A program made the translations under genes and the position numbers. Shown here in pieces: positions 1 to 8,217 of a stretch of DNA of 35,178 bases. The notes beneath the pieces are model-generated. The model was not told where the DNA came from and did no database searches. It was given only the letters and a program-made list of their open reading frames with translations. Origin of the DNA: Actinomycetota bacterium (GTDB lineage Bacteria; Actinomycetota; Thermoleophilia; UBA2241); NCBI GenBank assembly GCA_026392275.1, contig JAPLCM010000314.1, positions 1 through 35,178 of the forward strand. Direction: 5' to 3'. Each line of letters starts with the position of its first letter. Positions within the stretch are counted from its first letter, which is position 1.

Positions 1-588
1 GCCGGCGCCACGGAGGCGACGAACGACGTCTTCCGCACCCTCGGCATCGCCATGCTGATCGCCATCCTGCTCGTGTACCTCATCATGGTCGCCACCTTCC
101 GCAGCCTGCTGAACCCGCTGATCCTGCTGGTCAGCATCCCGTTCGCCGCGGTGGGCGCCGTACTCGCGCTGGTGGCCACCGGCACGGCGCTGGGCATGCC
201 CAGCCTCGTCGGCCTGCTGATGCTCATCGGCATCGTCGTCACCAACGCCATCGTGCTGCTCGACCTCGTAGAGCAGTTCCGCCGCCGCGGCATGGACGCG
301 CGCAGCGCGGTCGTCGAGGGCGGCCGGCGGCGACTGCGCCCGATCCTCATGACCGCGGTGGCCACCATCCTGGCGCTCACGCCCATGGCCCTGGGCATGG
401 GCAAGGGCGGCTACCTCTCCACGCCTCTGGCGATCGTCGTGATCGGCGGCCTGTTCACCTCCACGATGCTCACGCTCATACTGGTGCCGGTGCTGTACCT
501 CGTCTTCGACCGCGTGCGACCGCAGAACGCCTACGAACGCGAACAGGAGTTCACCGTGCCTGGGGCTGCGGAGACGGCGCCGGGCTGA
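1..588 (+). CDS. RND-family efflux transporter, C-terminal part (partial)
   Basis: This is the C-terminal end of an RND (HAE/AcrB-type) inner-membrane exporter; the frame is open from the first base, so the gene starts upstream of the window. The visible 195 residues hold the last transmembrane bundle. The RND signatures are GIVVTNAIVLLD, then RLRPILMTAVATILAL, and a final hydrophobic helix ending in LVPVLYLVFDR. Such proteins use the proton gradient to export drugs, metals or lipids, usually with a periplasmic adaptor. The substrate cannot be told from this fragment. The tail after the last helix is short and polar, as usual. The next gene begins 100 bp downstream with its own ribosome site. 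Family assignment is firm; the subfamily is not. Confidence 0.9.
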   Translation, partial: AGATEATNDVFRTLGIAMLIAILLVYLIMVATFRSLLNPLILLVSIPFAAVGAVLALVATGTALGMPSLVGLLMLIGIVVTNAIVLLDLVEQFRRRGMDARSAVVEGGRRRLRPILMTAVATILALTPMALGMGKGGYLSTPLAIVVIGGLFTSTMLTLILVPVLYLVFDRVRPQNAYEREQEFTVPGAAETAPG

Positions 589-1214: not shown

Positions 1215-1279
1215 CCGGCCGCCGGCCGCTTTCACGACGCCTGACCGGCGGCCGGGCTTCCCCTCCCGCCGCCGGTCAG
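1215..1279. terminator. Bidirectional GC-rich terminator with two alternative stems
   Basis: This lies between the convergent ferritin-like and MFS genes. A perfect 12-bp inverted repeat, CTGACCGGCGGC at 1241-1252 and its complement at 1268-1279, encloses a 15-nt loop. An alternative 11-bp stem pairs 1215-1225 with 1245-1255, so the two stems compete for the same bases. No clear U-tract follows either way. The second arm overlaps the last codons of the MFS gene. Confidence 0.6.
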
Positions 1280-2544
1280 GCTGCTTCGGGAAGCGGACGC
1301 CGCGCCGCCTGCGCTTGCTCGCGGCGCCGCTTCCAGCCCGGCGCCAGCGCCAAGAACAGGCCGGCGCCCACCAGGCCCTCCACCAGCAGGATGGCGAACG
1401 CCTGGCGGCCGCCGAAGGTGTCCATGGCCCAGCCGCCGAAGGCGGGACCGAGCGCCGCCCCGCCGCTCCACGCGATCGTCCACATGCCCATGTAGCGGCC
1501 GCGCACGGCCTCGGGGGCGAGGTCCGACACTTCGGCCGAGGCCACCGGCGAGAGCAGTGTCTCGCCGAGGCTCATCACGACGATGAGGATGATCAGCGAC
1601 CACAGCGGGCCGGCGAAGGCCGAGCCGCCGATGCCGACCGCCAGGGCGGCGCTGGCGATGGCCAGCAGGACCATGCGGTTTTTGAACCGTGTGGCGCGCA
1701 CGAGGGGGTACTGCACGGTGGCGACGATGAGGGCGTTCAGCGCCAGCAGCATCCCCCACTCCCCGAAGGGCACGCCGAGGTACTCGGTGATGTAGACGGA
1801 GTAGATCGAGCCGAAGTTGCCGATACAGAACACGGGCAGCACGGCGACCAGACAGAACACGAGAAACACGCGGTCGTGAAGTACGATGCGATAGCCGCTG
1901 CGTCCTTGCGCGTCGCGGTGCTTCTGCGGCGACGTGGCGCTCGCCGGGCGGCTCTCGCGGATGGTGAAGGACATGATCGCCACCATCAGCGCGCAGCCCG
2001 CGGCGGCGGCCAGGAACAGCTCCCGAAAGGTCACGCCGAAGCCGAGGGCCAGCCCGGCCGCCGCGGGCCCCACGACGACGCCCAGGTTCATCGCCACGCG
2101 ACTGACGCTGAACGCTTCCTGTCGCTTCTCGGGCGACAGCAGGTCGGCGATCATGGCATTGCTCGCTGTCTGGAACAGCGGCCATCCCAGGGAGCTCTCG
2201 ATGGCGACCAGCAGCGCGACCTGCCACACCTCGGTCACAAACGCGAAGCCGACGAACCAGACCACCCCCATGCTGACCGACAACAGGATGACCCAGCGGC
2301 GACCGAGACGGTCGGTGAGATGCCCGCCCCAGAACTGCACAGGCATCACGGCGACCGGCACCAGCCCGAAGAGCACGCCGATCATCGACATGGACACGCC
2401 CAGCTCCCTGTGCAGGTAGATGCCCTCGAAGGGGAAGGCGAGCGCCGCGGCGGCAACGTAGATGAAGATGCCCAGAGTCAGTACCCAGAACTGGCTGGGG
2501 AACGAGCGGAGCTCCCGCAGGGACCGTTTGAAGGGGGTCGACAC
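1276..2544 (-). CDS. MFS transporter
   Basis: The product is a 422-aa, roughly 12-helix major facilitator superfamily permease of standard length. The loop after helix 2 carries the MFS signature GGHLTDRLGRR (motif A), and a long hydrophilic central loop (ESRPASATSPQKHRDAQGR) separates the two halves. MFS carriers move small solutes or drugs with the proton gradient; the MDR/sugar-exporter type is most similar in feel, but the substrate is unknown. The GTG start at 2544 is supported because a TACCAT -10 box ends 6 nt upstream, giving a leaderless transcript, and because the protein then begins 20 residues before helix 1. The frame stays open far upstream, but that part lacks protein-like character. 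The gene is divergent from the HTH-GAF gene at 2852. Confidence 0.88.
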   Translation of the reverse strand: MSTPFKRSLRELRSFPSQFWVLTLGIFIYVAAAALAFPFEGIYLHRELGVSMSMIGVLFGLVPVAVMPVQFWGGHLTDRLGRRWVILLSVSMGVVWFVGFAFVTEVWQVALLVAIESSLGWPLFQTASNAMIADLLSPEKRQEAFSVSRVAMNLGVVVGPAAAGLALGFGVTFRELFLAAAAGCALMVAIMSFTIRESRPASATSPQKHRDAQGRSGYRIVLHDRVFLVFCLVAVLPVFCIGNFGSIYSVYITEYLGVPFGEWGMLLALNALIVATVQYPLVRATRFKNRMVLLAIASAALAVGIGGSAFAGPLWSLIILIVVMSLGETLLSPVASAEVSDLAPEAVRGRYMGMWTIAWSGGAALGPAFGGWAMDTFGGRQAFAILLVEGLVGAGLFLALAPGWKRRREQAQAARRPLPEAA

Positions 2545-2550
2545 GCCCTC

Positions 2551-2579
2551 ATGGTACCGGAGGCGCGGGCGCCCGCGCA
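2551..2579 (-). promoter_or_regulatory. Leaderless MFS promoter with palindromic operator candidate
   Basis: On the minus strand TACCAT (2556-2551) ends 6 nt before the GTG at 2544. A perfect 16-bp palindrome, GCGCGGGCGCCCGCGC, sits at 2563-2578, where the -35 box would fall; no good -35 hexamer is visible. A protein bound to the palindrome could repress the transporter. GC-rich palindromes also arise by chance in this genome. The rest of the 307-bp gap, 2580-2816, shows no gene or clear element. Confidence 0.4.
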
Positions 2580-2816
2580 GCCCGGCAGCCTGCGCCACGC
2601 GCAGCGAGAGGCGCGGCCCGCGGGCGGACGCCGCCCGATGCCCAGCCGAGGGAGCCTCATGCCCTGCACCGCTCGCCACGCGTCGGCAGGCACCGGGGCC
2701 GCGGCGCGATGACCCAGCCCTGCCGCCCGCCGGCCCTCTCTTGTCTCGAGTAAAGTGAACGCCTCGTGCGGGCATATCTCCGAGCCTCCGGGAGCGCCCC
2801 CTGAAGTTGCTCATTG

Positions 2817-2851
2817 TTGACTGAACCCCGCGACGCCGGTAGGTTCTGCGC
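2817..2851 (+). promoter_or_regulatory. Promoter of first HTH-GAF gene (leaderless)
   Basis: TTGACT (2817-2822), a 17-nt spacer and TAGGTT (2840-2845) are followed by exactly 6 nt and the ATG at 2852. Transcription is therefore predicted to start at or next to the start codon. No Shine-Dalgarno sequence is present. The same spacing and a nearly identical spacer end (CGCCGG) recur upstream of the paralogue at 4128. Confidence 0.7.
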
Positions 2852-3946
2852 ATGCTTCTGAGCGTCCAGCAAGCCGCGCGGCGGTTCGGCGTGTCGCCGG
2901 TCACGATCCGCCGCTGGACCGCGACCGGTTTTCTGCCGTGCACGCGCACCGCCGGCGGCCACCGTCGCATCGACGACCACGACATCGACGACCTCGCCAA
3001 GGCCATCGGCAACAGCAACCACCTGGCCGCCCAGCTCGCCCGCGAGCGCGAGGTCGACGTGCTCATCAACACCTCTATCGCGCTCGCCGGCAAGATCGAC
3101 CTCACCGAGCTCCTGGTGGAGATCGCGATGCGCATGACCAGCCTGCTCGACTGCCACTTCTGCGCCATCTCGGAGTACGACACCGAGGCCCAGAGCCTCG
3201 TCACGCTGGCCGAGTACGACCACGCGGGGCGGCGCCTCCCCGACGGCAGCCCGTACGACCTCAGGGATTTCCCCCTCACGCGCACCGTGCTGCAGGATCA
3301 GACGGCGGCGGTCGTGAACAGCGACGACCCCGACGCCGACCCGGCCGAGGTCGCCGAGCTGCGCCGCGAGGGCGATCGCAGTCTTCTGATGGTGCCGCTC
3401 ATCGTGCAGGGCGACACCATCGGCATCCTCGAGGTGGTCGACCAGAAGCGCTCGCGCGCGTACTCACGGCAGGAGCTCCGCCTGGCCGGCGCCATCGCCG
3501 GTCAGGCGGCCGTGGCGATCAAGAACGCCAAGCTGTTCGCAGAGCGGTGCCGCAGCGACGAGGACGTGTCCAGCCTACGTCGCGTGCTCGTCGATCTCAC
3601 CACACGCGCGCCGGCGGTGAGCGCCGCGGGGCGCGGCCCTGACCTCCTCACCGCTGTGGCCGGCGCCGTCTGCGAAGCCTTCGGCGCCATCTCCTGCGTC
3701 GCCAGCGTGGGCGGCGCGAGCGCCGGCGCCTTCGGTGCCGGTCGGGTCGCCGCCCGCCCCGCATCCGGCAACGCCGAGCGCGGCGCCAACGCCAGCCTCG
3801 TCGTGTCGCGCGACCCCTCGGGACGCACCGACCTCACCCTCGCCGTCACGCTCGGCGAACCACCCGGCGAGGGCCAGGTGGAGCTTCTCGACTTCATCGT
3901 CGCGATCACCGCCGGCGTGATGGCGCCCGCCGGACCAGCCGCCTGA
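2852..3946 (+). CDS. HTH (excisionase/MerR-type) - GAF regulator, first paralogue
   Basis: The 364-aa protein begins with a winged HTH of the excisionase/MerR type (residues about 2-48): SVQQAARRFGVSPVTIRRW, then the wing TRTAGGHRRI. A GAF sensor domain follows at about 70-225 (TELLVEIAMRMTSLLDCHFC ... LLMVPLIVQGDTIGILEVVD ... LAGAIAGQAAVAIKNAKLFA). The last 130 residues look like a degenerate second GAF-like unit with an Ala/Gly-rich stretch. The family would bind DNA and sense a small ligand or redox cue; neither is known here. The paralogue at 4128 is similar along its whole length. The start is fixed by the promoter, which places the mRNA end at the ATG. No linked target gene is evident, although the divergent MFS gene is a candidate. 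Confidence 0.85.
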   Translation: MLLSVQQAARRFGVSPVTIRRWTATGFLPCTRTAGGHRRIDDHDIDDLAKAIGNSNHLAAQLAREREVDVLINTSIALAGKIDLTELLVEIAMRMTSLLDCHFCAISEYDTEAQSLVTLAEYDHAGRRLPDGSPYDLRDFPLTRTVLQDQTAAVVNSDDPDADPAEVAELRREGDRSLLMVPLIVQGDTIGILEVVDQKRSRAYSRQELRLAGAIAGQAAVAIKNAKLFAERCRSDEDVSSLRRVLVDLTTRAPAVSAAGRGPDLLTAVAGAVCEAFGAISCVASVGGASAGAFGAGRVAARPASGNAERGANASLVVSRDPSGRTDLTLAVTLGEPPGEGQVELLDFIVAITAGVMAPAGPAA

Positions 3947-4092
3947 GATCTGCCGCCGCGCGCGACAGCAACGCGAAGAGATCGGCGCGCTCGTCGTGCG
4001 TCCCGCGCTGTTCATCGCCGGATAGCTGGGCTTCCTCGCCGTGAGAACGCCGCTCAAACTTCGCCGGCTGCGCCCAAGAAACCTCGCGGCAG

Positions 4093-4127
4093 TTGATGAA
4101 GGCCGCAGGCGCCGGTAGGGTTTGTCC
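4093..4127 (+). promoter_or_regulatory. Promoter of second HTH-GAF gene (leaderless)
   Basis: TTGATG (4093-4098), a 17-nt spacer and TAGGGT (4116-4121) are followed by 6 nt and the ATG at 4128. The layout matches the first paralogue base for base in spacing, and the sequence GCGCCGGTAGG is shared. This argues that duplication included the promoter and that both genes answer to the same sigma factor or regulator. The preceding gap (3947-4092) shows nothing else. Confidence 0.7.
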
Positions 4128-5210
4128 ATGTACTGCAGCGTACAGCTTGCCGCGCGCCGTCTGGGAGTGTCGCCGCACACCATCCGCCGCTGGACGGCCT
4201 CCGGCTTCTTGCCCTGCACGCGCACCGCCGGCGGGCACCGGCGCATCAAGCTCGAGGACATCGACGAGCTCACCCATCTCATCGGCGGGAGCAATCATCT
4301 GGCCGCCCGCCTGGCCCGCGAGCGCGAGCTCGAGACGCTGGTCGAGACGGCGATCGTCGTCTCCAGCCGCCTGGAGGTCCCCGAGCTGCTCCGAGAGATC
4401 GCCAAGCAGATGACCACCCTGCTCGACGCCCACATGTGCGTGATCTCCGAGTACGACCCGGCGACCCGCACCGTCTCGGTGCAGGCCGAGTACGACGATC
4501 TCGGCAACCGCAGCGTCGACACCATGACCTACACGCTCAGCCAGTTCCCCATGGCCCGCAAGGCCATCGAGGACCACGAGAGCATCACCGTGAACGTGAG
4601 CGATCTGCACGCCGACGCGGCCGAGGTCGCGATCATGCGCCGCGACGGCGACAAGTGCCTGCTCATCCTGCCGATGATCCACCAGGGCCAGGCCATCGGT
4701 CTGCTCGAGGTGCTCGATCATCAGCGCGAACGGCGCTTCAGCCGCCAGGAGATGCGCCTCGCGAACGCCCTCGCCGGGCAGGCCGCCGTGGCGATGCGCA
4801 ACGCCAAGGTGTTCGCGCAGCTCAAGAACAGCGACGAGGACGTGCTCTCCCTGCGCCACGCCATCGAGAGGATCGCCGCCGGGCACGCCGCCCTCGTGAG
4901 CCAGTCCTCGGCGAGCGGAGTACTTCAGGCGACGGCCGACCTGGCCGCGCAGGCGCTCGACGCCGTGTCCTGCGTGGCCGGCTGCAACGGGATCAGCGCC
5001 GGTGCCGCGGGCGGGCGCGGCGGCGCCGGCGGCGCCCGCGGCACCCGGACCGACGCCGCCTACGTGATCGTCTCGACGGCGCCCTGCGGAGCGGGCCGGC
5101 TTGCCCTCACCCTCACCCTGAGGCGCGCCGCCGGCGAGGGCCAGGCCGAGCTCCTCGGTCTTATCGCCGCCATGGCTGCCGGCGCGCTCGCGAGTCTGCC
5201 CGCCGCCTGA
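4128..5210 (+). CDS. HTH (excisionase/MerR-type) - GAF regulator, second paralogue
   Basis: This 360-aa protein has the same design as the gene at 2852: HTH at 2-48 (SVQLAARRLGVSPHTIRRW and TRTAGGHRRI), GAF at about 70-225 (VPELLREIAKQMTTLLDAHM ... LLILPMIHQGQAIGLLEVLD), and a C-terminal GAF-like remnant with a Gly/Ala/Arg-rich insert near residue 290. A TTG at 4122 is in frame, but the ATG at 4128 aligns with the paralogue's first residue and lies 6 nt after the -10 box, so ATG is preferred. HTH recognition residues are nearly identical in the two proteins, so they may share DNA sites or form heterodimers. The GAF pockets differ more, which suggests different signals. Function is otherwise unknown. 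Confidence 0.85.
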   Translation: MYCSVQLAARRLGVSPHTIRRWTASGFLPCTRTAGGHRRIKLEDIDELTHLIGGSNHLAARLARERELETLVETAIVVSSRLEVPELLREIAKQMTTLLDAHMCVISEYDPATRTVSVQAEYDDLGNRSVDTMTYTLSQFPMARKAIEDHESITVNVSDLHADAAEVAIMRRDGDKCLLILPMIHQGQAIGLLEVLDHQRERRFSRQEMRLANALAGQAAVAMRNAKVFAQLKNSDEDVLSLRHAIERIAAGHAALVSQSSASGVLQATADLAAQALDAVSCVAGCNGISAGAAGGRGGAGGARGTRTDAAYVIVSTAPCGAGRLALTLTLRRAAGEGQAELLGLIAAMAAGALASLPAA

Positions 5211-5307: not shown

Positions 5308-8217
5308 ATGCCCGCGGCCGCTCCTCCCCAGCTCGTCGTACTCGACACCGAGACCACCGGTCTCGACGCGGAGCGCGACCGCATCATCGATATCGGCGCC
5401 GTCCGTCTCGGCCCCGACCTCGAAGTCAGCGACCGGTTCGCGACGCTCGTCGACCCGGACGTGCCGATCCCCCTCTTCATCACGCGCCTGGTGGGCATCA
5501 CCGATGCAGACGTGCGCGGCGCGCCCGCCTTCCCGGCGGCGTTCTCTGCCCTGCGCGAGTTCGCCGGCGACGCGATACTCGTCGGCCACAATGTCGGCTT
5601 CGACCGCGAACATCTGGAAGCCGGCGCCCGCAGAGCAGGCCTGTCACCCCTGCCGAACGCGTGGTTCGACACCCTCGAGGCGGCTCTGTTGCTGTACCCG
5701 GAACTCGACCGGCACGCGCTGGCCATCCTGGCCGCCGAGTTCGGCATCGAGCGCCAGGCGCACCGCGCGCTTCCAGATGCGGAGTCGGCGGCCGACGTAC
5801 TGAAGCGGCTGAGCGCCCGCGCCGCGGGCCTCGGCGCCGAGGAGCGCGGTCTGCTGACGGCCGTCCGCTGGGCGCCGCTCGACCTGCTCGACAGGTTCGA
5901 GGCGACGCCCGACGTGGCGCCCCCACCCGTGGTCGCCGACGAGCCCAGAAGCGGCGGCGCGCTTGCCGTTCTGCCGGTCGACGCCGGCGGCTGGCGCGCC
6001 GAGCTGGGGGTCGACGCAGAGGGCGGCGAAGAGCAAGGCGTGGACGGCGCGTCCGCACGCGCCGCGCCGGGCCTGGCCGCGCGGCTCCCCGGCTTTCGCC
6101 GTCGCCCCGGCCAGGGGCAGCTCGCCGCCGCCGCCGCCGACATCTTCGCGGGCGGCGGCGTGGGCCTCTTCGAAGCCGGCACCGGTATGGGCAAGAGCCT
6201 CGCCTACCTCCTGCCGGCAGCCTTCGCCGGCGCCGCCGCCGGCCGCCGCATCGTCGTGAGCACCAAGACGAAAGCCCTGCAGCGCCAGCTGGCCGCGCAT
6301 GAGCTGCCCATCGTCGCGCAGGCGCTGCCGCCGGGCTGGCGCTGGGCGCTGCTCATGGGCCGCGAGAACTACGTCTGCCGGCGGCGGCTCGACGAGGCAG
6401 TGGCCGCCGAGAGCGAGGCACTGCCGGACCGCGACCGATCGCTGGCGCTCGCGTACCTCGTGGGCAGGGCGCGCCGCGGCGAGGTCGACCTCTCCGCGCT
6501 GCCGTACCGCGCCTCGCGGGAGCTGCCCGCCCTGGCCGAGTTGACCCGCGAACTGCGTTCGTCGCGGGCCACCTGCCTGGGCCGGCACTGCCCCTCCCGG
6601 CGCGGCTGTCACTGGCGGCTCGCGCGCACTCGCGCAGAGGCGGCGCACCTGTTGTGCGTAAACCACGCCCTGCTGCTCACGGCCCCCGGGGCGCTCCCTC
6701 CGTTCGAGGATGTCGTCATCGATGAGGCCCACCTGCTGTATCACGAAGCCACCGAGGCGTTCAGCGAAGCCATCGACGCGCTGACCATCGACCTGCTGCT
6801 CGCCGATCTGCGCGGCCGGCGCCGGCAGCGGCCGCTGCCGCTGAGACTGCGGGCGGCGGCTCGGCGCGCCGAGCCCGGCGAGGCGCGCGCCCTCGCGGCG
6901 GCCGCCGATTCGTGCGCCCGGGCGGCCGAGCTCCTCCCCGACCTGGTGCGCGCCGTCGGCGAGACACTCGCCGATCTCGGCGTCGCGGCCCGCGACGAGG
7001 ACGCCGAGCCGGGTGAGCGCGGCGGCGGCCGGCGGAGCGCGGCGGACGCAGAGTACAACCAGACGGTGTGGATCACGCCGGGCCTTCGCGAGCACCCGGC
7101 CTGGGATCCGTTCGCGGTCGCCACGGGCCTGCTCACCGAGGGCCTCGCGGCTCTGGCCGCCGGCGTGGCGCCGGCCGTCGAGGCCCTGCCCGACGAACAC
7201 CGCGAACACGCCGCAGTGGTGGCTCTCGCCGACGACGCCGCACGCTACGGCGCTCTGCTCGGCGAACTCCCCGAGAGCGGCGGCGCGGACGCCGTCGTCT
7301 GGGGCGAGATCGAGGCCGCCCGGCGCGTTGGCGGCGGCGTCGACGGCGGCGCCCCGCGCCCCGCGCGCTGGACGCTCACGCGCACGCCACTCACGCCTGC
7401 GCGCCAGGTGCGCGAGGCGCTCTGGGACCGCCTGCGCAGCGCCGTCCTCACCAGCGCCACCCTGACGGTCTCCGGCTCGTTCGCGTACTTTCGCGGCATG
7501 ACCGGCCTGGACGCGGACGTCGACGTGGTCGAGCGCGTCTTCCCCTCGCCCTTCGACTTCAGCCGCCAGGCGGTGCTTGTGCTCGAGCACGATCCCGGCG
7601 GCGTCTGGCGGCCCGATGCGCTCGCCGAGCGCCACGGCGAACGCCTCAAGCGCCTCGCCGCCGTGACCGGCGGCCGCACCCTGGCGCTGTTCACCAACAA
7701 ACGCGATATGAACCTGGTGGCCGCCGCGGTCGGCGCGCATGTGGAAGACGACGGCGTTCTCGTGCTGGCCCAGGGCCTGCACGGCAGCGCGGCCGCCCTG
7801 GCCGATGAGTTCCGCACGCATCCCGCAACGATCCTGCTCGGCGTCGACACGCTCTGGACCGGGCAGGACTTCCCCGGCGACACGCTCACCTGCCTCGTGA
7901 TCGCCAAGCTGCCCTTCCCGCGCCAGGACCCACTGTTTCACGCCCGGCGGCGCGCCTGCGACGAGGCCGGCGAACGCTGGTTCGACACGTTCTATCTGCC
8001 CGAGGCGGTGCTCAAGTTCCGACAGGGCTTCGGCCGCCTCATCCGCACCGAGACCGACACGGGCGTCGTGGTCGTGCTCGACCAGCGGCTCACGCAGAAG
8101 AACTACCGGGGCGCATTCGTCGACAGCCTGCCGCAACTGGAGGTCGTCGAAGCCGCCCCCGAGGAGATCCCGGCTGTCGTGGAGCACTACCTGCGACGGC
8201 TCGTCGGCGACACCTGA
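5308..8217 (+). CDS. dinG: DnaQ-like exonuclease - DinG-type Fe-S helicase fusion
   Basis: The 969-aa protein fuses a DEDDh 3'-5' exonuclease to an XPD/DinG superfamily 2 helicase. Exonuclease motifs: DTETTG (about 13-18), HNVGFDREHL (about 95), HRALPDAES (about 153). Helicase: Walker A EAGTGMGKS (about 289-297), DEAH at about 472-475, and late motifs LTSATLTVSGSF, GVDTLWTGQDFPG and RQGFGRLIR. Four cysteines between Walker A and DEAH (C357 in NYVC; C423, C428 and C434 in CLGRHCPSRRGC) form the site of a 4Fe-4S cluster. DinG unwinds DNA and R-loops in repair. A nuclease together with an intact Fe-S motif is notable: E. coli DinG has the cluster but no nuclease, while Staphylococcus-type DinG has the nuclease but lacks the cluster. 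An unusual Ala/Glu/Arg-rich region lies around residues 500-640. Confidence 0.9.
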   Translation: MPAAAPPQLVVLDTETTGLDAERDRIIDIGAVRLGPDLEVSDRFATLVDPDVPIPLFITRLVGITDADVRGAPAFPAAFSALREFAGDAILVGHNVGFDREHLEAGARRAGLSPLPNAWFDTLEAALLLYPELDRHALAILAAEFGIERQAHRALPDAESAADVLKRLSARAAGLGAEERGLLTAVRWAPLDLLDRFEATPDVAPPPVVADEPRSGGALAVLPVDAGGWRAELGVDAEGGEEQGVDGASARAAPGLAARLPGFRRRPGQGQLAAAAADIFAGGGVGLFEAGTGMGKSLAYLLPAAFAGAAAGRRIVVSTKTKALQRQLAAHELPIVAQALPPGWRWALLMGRENYVCRRRLDEAVAAESEALPDRDRSLALAYLVGRARRGEVDLSALPYRASRELPALAELTRELRSSRATCLGRHCPSRRGCHWRLARTRAEAAHLLCVNHALLLTAPGALPPFEDVVIDEAHLLYHEATEAFSEAIDALTIDLLLADLRGRRRQRPLPLRLRAAARRAEPGEARALAAAADSCARAAELLPDLVRAVGETLADLGVAARDEDAEPGERGGGRRSAADAEYNQTVWITPGLREHPAWDPFAVATGLLTEGLAALAAGVAPAVEALPDEHREHAAVVALADDAARYGALLGELPESGGADAVVWGEIEAARRVGGGVDGGAPRPARWTLTRTPLTPARQVREALWDRLRSAVLTSATLTVSGSFAYFRGMTGLDADVDVVERVFPSPFDFSRQAVLVLEHDPGGVWRPDALAERHGERLKRLAAVTGGRTLALFTNKRDMNLVAAAVGAHVEDDGVLVLAQGLHGSAAALADEFRTHPATILLGVDTLWTGQDFPGDTLTCLVIAKLPFPRQDPLFHARRRACDEAGERWFDTFYLPEAVLKFRQGFGRLIRTETDTGVVVVLDQRLTQKNYRGAFVDSLPQLEVVEAAPEEIPAVVEHYLRRLVGDT

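Follow-up and report, generated by a model that had tools for sequence, protein, structure and literature searches.

Tandem BldC-like HTH-GAF regulators with a predicted two-box operator in a family of Thermoleophilia and the probable loss of a divergent enzyme gene

Known Regulators With Related Domains

Proteins with a BldC-like helix-turn-helix (HTH) are widespread, and BldC itself has no sensor domain. MerR-family activators, which untwist promoter spacers of 19–20 nt, combine an N-terminal MerR/HTH_17 domain with a C-terminal effector domain and often act at autoregulated divergent promoters. In Streptomyces BldC (68 aa; PDB 6ama, 6amk) the wing contacts an AT-rich core and Arg30 a C-G pair, and the bases lying between these are read by Lys26; the protomer site is AATTXXXX(C), and in the solved complexes one repeat follows directly on the next, at about 9 bp each (PMC5859096). 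A BldC-like HTH joined to a further domain is also found in a putative cobalamin binding protein (PDB 8jbs/8jbt). A literature search found nothing on the BldC family or BldC-like proteins in combination with a GAF domain, nor on a saccharopine dehydrogenase with a GAF regulator.

Tandem Genes A and B

The window (the whole stretch of 35,178 nt that was analysed) is one complete contig, C325, of a 2.9-Mb draft genome. It carries two full-length tandem paralogues, as the initial annotation had stated: gene A (2852..3946, + strand, 364 aa) and gene B (4128..5210, + strand, 360 aa), 52% identical overall. Both have the same layout of a BldC-like HTH (residues 1–53 in A), a GAF domain (84–230), a long helix and a degenerate second GAF (263–357), and their identity is 76% in the HTH, 53% in the GAF and 40% in the C-terminal GAF-like domain. 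Pfam recognizes HTH_17/MerR and GAF in both proteins (PF00376 and PF13411 above cut-off; GAF_2 at 8e-16 and 2e-14). The best PDB match of the HTH is 8jbs/8jbt (E 2.6e-5), with BldC also near, and the NCBIfam BldC model scores 44.7 and 35.8 bits, below its cut-off of 77. A and B share with BldC the winged HTH, the RTxGGHRR wing and the equivalent of Arg30, which is invariant in A/B homologues; they differ from it by the fusion of the HTH to a GAF-GAF' module and by Val or His at the position of Lys26. They carry a GAF in place of the MerR effector domains, and 8jbs/8jbt is described as cobalamin-binding and not as a GAF protein. The predicted structure (mean pLDDT 87.5) contains the HTH and the GAF and, beyond the long helix, another fold of GAF type; phytochrome GAF-PHY tandem modules rank first in a structure search with this model and DevS is nearest to the GAF in sequence search. 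A bilin- or haem-binding GAF, considered on account of these similarities, was set aside since no recognizable chromophore motif was seen. The dN/dS ratios (about 0.25 for A against congeners and about 0.2–0.26 for B) indicate purifying selection on both genes.

Among 299 sampled Thermoleophilia genomes, strong full-length homologues were found in the window's own family only, and matches in two genomes from another family are limited to the GAF part. The relatives of gene A that carry names are from metagenome bins assigned to Thermoleophilia or Actinobacteria; their isolate names suggest lakes and permafrost or palsa. In the tree, A and B orthologues form two clades (99% SH-aLRT support for the B clade), each broadly tracking genera, which makes the duplication older than the genera. 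The A-B pair is syntenic in relatives, the tandem being conserved in most genera, so the missing synteny that the initial annotation had named as refuting its proposal is not observed. Most of them keep the order of a divergent MFS transporter gene (1276..2550, − strand), A, B and a DinG-type exonuclease/helicase gene (5308..8217, + strand). The latter is the conserved 3' neighbor of the tandem and is not implicated in its regulation; the MFS gene is a neighbor at nearly all A/B loci. Exceptions are G010, where the order is B-A, and G007, where B is at the locus and A elsewhere.

Promoters and Operator Boxes

The promoter layout is exactly as first annotated for both genes, TTGA(C/T), 17 nt, TAGG(T/G)T, 6 nt and ATG. 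Gene A has the −35 TTGACT at 2817..2822 and the −10 TAGGTT at 2840..2845, 6 nt before the ATG at 2852; gene B has TTGATG at 4093..4098 (TTGAC in relatives) and TAGGGT at 4116..4121, 6 nt before the ATG at 4128 (all + strand; both −10 elements of leaderless type). These are also the only TTGA-type −35/−10 pairs at gene starts in the window: a scan for TTGA-16..19-TANNNT returned three matches, two of them at gene starts, with about 1.2 expected by chance. TTGAC stands at −35 in 11/11 A orthologues compared, and the −35 as well as the −35/−10/ATG spacing are kept wherever the promoter of an A or B orthologue can be read. Since this spacing is kept across several genera while identity in the promoter spacer has fallen to about 30%, its sharing by A and B exceeds chance. 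Nearly all A and B orthologues have TANNNT at −12 or −13 and are predicted to be leaderless. Leaderless-type −10 elements are not unusual in the window, where the DinG gene and several others have one, and about 19% of genes are leaderless on average in Actinobacteria (PMC3160421). The 10-mer CGCCGGTAGG shared by both promoters is found in this genome alone; relatives have CGCCGCTAGG at A and CCCGCTACGG at B, and the 10-mer was for this reason rejected as an operator.

When upstream regions are aligned by their start codons, two RAASTTS boxes, which the initial annotation does not mention, are seen 23 bp apart, at −71/−72 and −48/−49, in an alignment where the TTGAC −35 and the TANNNT −10 are fixed and the spacers random. 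The spacing of 23 was observed 10 times and the next commonest three times. The pair is present in all A orthologues other than the window's (one box being weak in some) and in 8/12 B orthologues. The window's A keeps the −48 box alone (2804..2809, +; AAGTTG(CTC), A flavor), which forms a zero-mismatch match with the −35 and −10; the box 1 site at −71 (2781..2786, +) has decayed here and is recognizable in other A orthologues. The window's B has an exact box 1 at −71 (4057..4062, +; AACTTC(GCC), B flavor) and, 23 bp from it, a box 2 at −48 (4080..4085, +; AACCTC(GCG)) that is one base off the consensus. Four B orthologues (G007, G009, G010, and G012) keep the −35 and −10 and have no boxes, so autoregulation of B would not be universal. 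The boxes partly resemble those of BldC, in their AT-rich core, a C some bases downstream and their direct-repeat orientation; compared with AATTXXXX(C), that C is present in 15/21 A boxes and comes one base earlier in B boxes. However, the 23-bp spacing contrasts with the contiguous BldC repeats and is not the known binding mode of BldC. Unlike in MerR activators, the promoter spacer is 17 nt long and holds no operator, the boxes lying upstream of the −35.

Across 15 whole family genomes, 11 of 13 distinct sites of the exact two-box pattern are at HTH-GAF genes (about six hits for the reversed pattern, used as control), and the strict combination of box, −35 and −10 with zero mismatches occurs at A and B promoters only. 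Exact hits away from A and B, in G012 (C328) and G005 (C118), appear to be inside long open frames. No large further regulon with the box, −35 and −10 layout was seen in scans with up to two mismatches, which gave 100 hits and 93 in the reversed-pattern control, and the idea of such a regulon was dropped because the two numbers are about equal. The earlier suggestion that A and B act on each other's promoter finds support insofar as each probably acts on its own promoter or that of its partner, since the two-box operator is just upstream of both genes and almost nowhere else; some cross-binding may occur.

A Divergent Saccharopine-Dehydrogenase-Like Gene

In four relatives (G001, G002, G006, and G013) A has as its divergent neighbor, about 198 bp away, a gene for a 395-aa saccharopine-dehydrogenase-like protein (sdh), with the MFS gene behind it on the same strand. 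Copies divergent to HTH-GAF genes were also found in G007, G012, G008 (C174), G009 (C53), and G010 (C18), so that a close homologue (>50% identity) has this position at nine loci in five genera; the A locus of G009 has a broken, fossil copy. The protein is saccharopine-dehydrogenase-like over its full length and resembles carboxynorspermidine synthase/carboxyspermidine dehydrogenase (NF043000; PDB 8deb, 4rl6), scoring 143 bits with the NF043000 model, whose cut-off is 800. Relatives have this conserved divergent pair of regulator and enzyme, with a predicted shared operator, at the nine loci; the window has lost it.

A matrix trained on A and B boxes detected sites outside its training set in four regulator–sdh gaps (L050, L058, L063, and L056), as well as a 21.4-bit site upstream of an sdh gene with no adjacent regulator (G008, C159). 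The exact pattern WACTTG-N17-WACTTG has four sites in the 15 genomes, namely two A promoters, one coding region of lower GC (G000, C12) and this same sdh gene. The HTH-GAF gene paired with sdh on C174 of G008 is without clear boxes. An element near −117 to −87 upstream of A, TCTCNCAG...CAGG, is present together with sdh or its G009 fossil and was not found in the A upstream regions of G000, G005, G008 (C164), and G011; it may be the sdh promoter. The regulator–sdh pair of G008 (C174) is flanked by agmatine deiminase and ABC binding-protein genes and that of G007 by an amino-acid permease gene; with an MTTB-family methyltransferase gene beside another sdh, these are mixed neighbors that give a weak hint of amine or amino-acid metabolism.

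The genome of the window has probably lost sdh, as its best remaining homologues are just 29–33% identical and a probable remnant (leader and first codons; 2573..2748, − strand) aligns collinearly with relatives. The old ATG would be at 2658–2660, giving MRLPRLGIG as compared to MRVLQLGVG, and its distance from A is 191 bp, against about 198 bp in relatives. Alignment of the remnant to G006 scored 71 (best of 300 shuffles, 58) and that to G001 gave p 0.01; the alignments to G002 and G013 were not significant, and no clear signal of an sdh remnant was found at the expected place in G005, G011, and G008 (C164). The MFS gene would then adjoin A partly by deletion. The initial annotation had named this divergent MFS gene as a possible target, for which its synteny nearly everywhere speaks; on the other hand, sdh lies between MFS and A in several relatives and shares the operator region. 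MFS as the main target was rejected because no operator-type promoter was seen for it and other boxed HTH-GAF genes lie away from MFS.

Proposed Mechanism and Alternative Explanations

The reading that we prefer, with a probability of about 0.6, is that A and B are one-component regulators acting on their own two-box operators, which ancestrally would also have served the sdh gene since lost here. The BldC-like winged HTH would read DNA, and the GAF, with the degenerate second GAF, a small molecule, possibly an amine, polyamine or amino-acid type of ligand. Each regulator would bind two head-to-tail RAASTTS boxes upstream of its own −35 and thereby control its leaderless promoter, with A acting chiefly at A-type boxes and B chiefly at B-type ones. 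In the ancestor, the boxes upstream of the HTH-GAF gene would have formed a divergent control region shared with sdh, a carboxy(nor)spermidine-synthase-like enzyme gene, whose deletion from the window's genome left A and B in place. The genes, promoters and boxes, the near-confinement of the boxes to these loci, synteny and a partial correlation of box flavor with HTH residue 17 can be read in the DNA itself, whereas binding is inferred. The boxes are upstream of the −35, a location that suggests activation rather than repression; a repressor might also extend to the −35 from there.

Whether the two proteins share sites bears directly on the original proposal that A and B read different signals, act on the same sites and cross-regulate one another as well as the divergent MFS gene. 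It agrees with the higher identity of the HTH (76%) than of the GAF (53%), with the match of box core and positions at both promoters and with the MFS synteny, including some relatives in which MFS follows sdh in the same orientation. The recognition helices, described as nearly identical, nevertheless differ at HTH residue 17, equivalent to Lys26 of BldC, which is Val in every A and His in every B, and the box tails differ too, at bases close to those contacted by Lys26 in BldC: A boxes favor AASTTGCTC, whereas AASTTCGC is favored in B boxes (Fisher p 0.004 at one position and 0.003 at another, for related sequences from few genera with kinship uncorrected). Boxes of mixed flavor are found at the C paralogues, whose residue 17 is His. 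No operator-type promoter was seen for MFS, and boxes are retained in G007 and G012, where A lies with sdh away from MFS; together with the split of residue 17 and box tails by clade, this makes shared sites an unlikely account. The correlation between box flavor and residue 17, from few genera, favors a partial insulation of A from B, and the sequences as a whole favor paralogue-specific autoregulation plus sdh control over common sites. A fuller version of the preferred reading, in which duplicated HTH-GAF sensors with a 23-bp two-box operator are insulated by the Val/His change at residue 17 and the box-tail change and have outlived a lost enzyme, is tentative and somewhat doubtful in its entirety; it would describe a family-specific unit that joins GAF sensing to a BldC-like HTH, in which the box change matches the recognition-helix change.

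It is less probable still that the boxes serve another, unlinked regulator of A, B, and sdh, with the targets of A and B elsewhere. Site use is read from conservation, and boxes are missing at four of the B genes and at one HTH-GAF gene beside sdh, as such a regulator would allow; yet the sites go with HTH-GAF paralogues at unrelated loci and their core resembles the BldC protomer site. Plain duplication, the inherited layout marking strong leaderless promoters with no special regulation, seems the most improbable of these accounts: leaderless −10 elements are common in the phylum (PMC3160421) and in the window, but the boxes, their 23-bp spacing and the −35 are conserved over several genera with randomized spacers, and the rest of the genomes has almost no such sites.

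Enzyme genes with a divergent, autoregulated one-component regulator are already familiar. What is new here is the linking of a BldC-like HTH to a sensor domain, for which an operator, a base-reading residue and an enzyme target are predicted; the pair also offers a natural example of the way in which binding sites may become separate after a regulator is duplicated. If the preferred reading is true, an enzyme served by regulators can be lost while the regulators persist.

Other Observations

A third type of HTH-GAF paralogue (L063, G009:C53; L046, G003:C325) retains two 23-bp boxes in an upstream sequence without the leaderless −10 layout. At L184 (G007:C212), AT-rich upstream regions (about 3255–3330 and 4727) with repeated AACTT-type boxes and TTGACT lie close to two genes, a complete MerR gene of 223 aa and one of RecA/KaiC type, perhaps reflecting a separate box-using regulator. 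The DinG-type gene of the window has TATCCT of leaderless type 6 nt before its ATG, without a −35. In another family of Thermoleophilia, L186 (G137:C72, 4073–5092) and L187 (G266:C3, 4532–5554) encode a similar GAF protein that has no HTH and is about 340 aa long. Finally, at L210 (G008:C159, 1893–4535) the sdh gene without a regulator is followed on the same strand by a gene of the MTTB family (trimethylamine methyltransferase-like).
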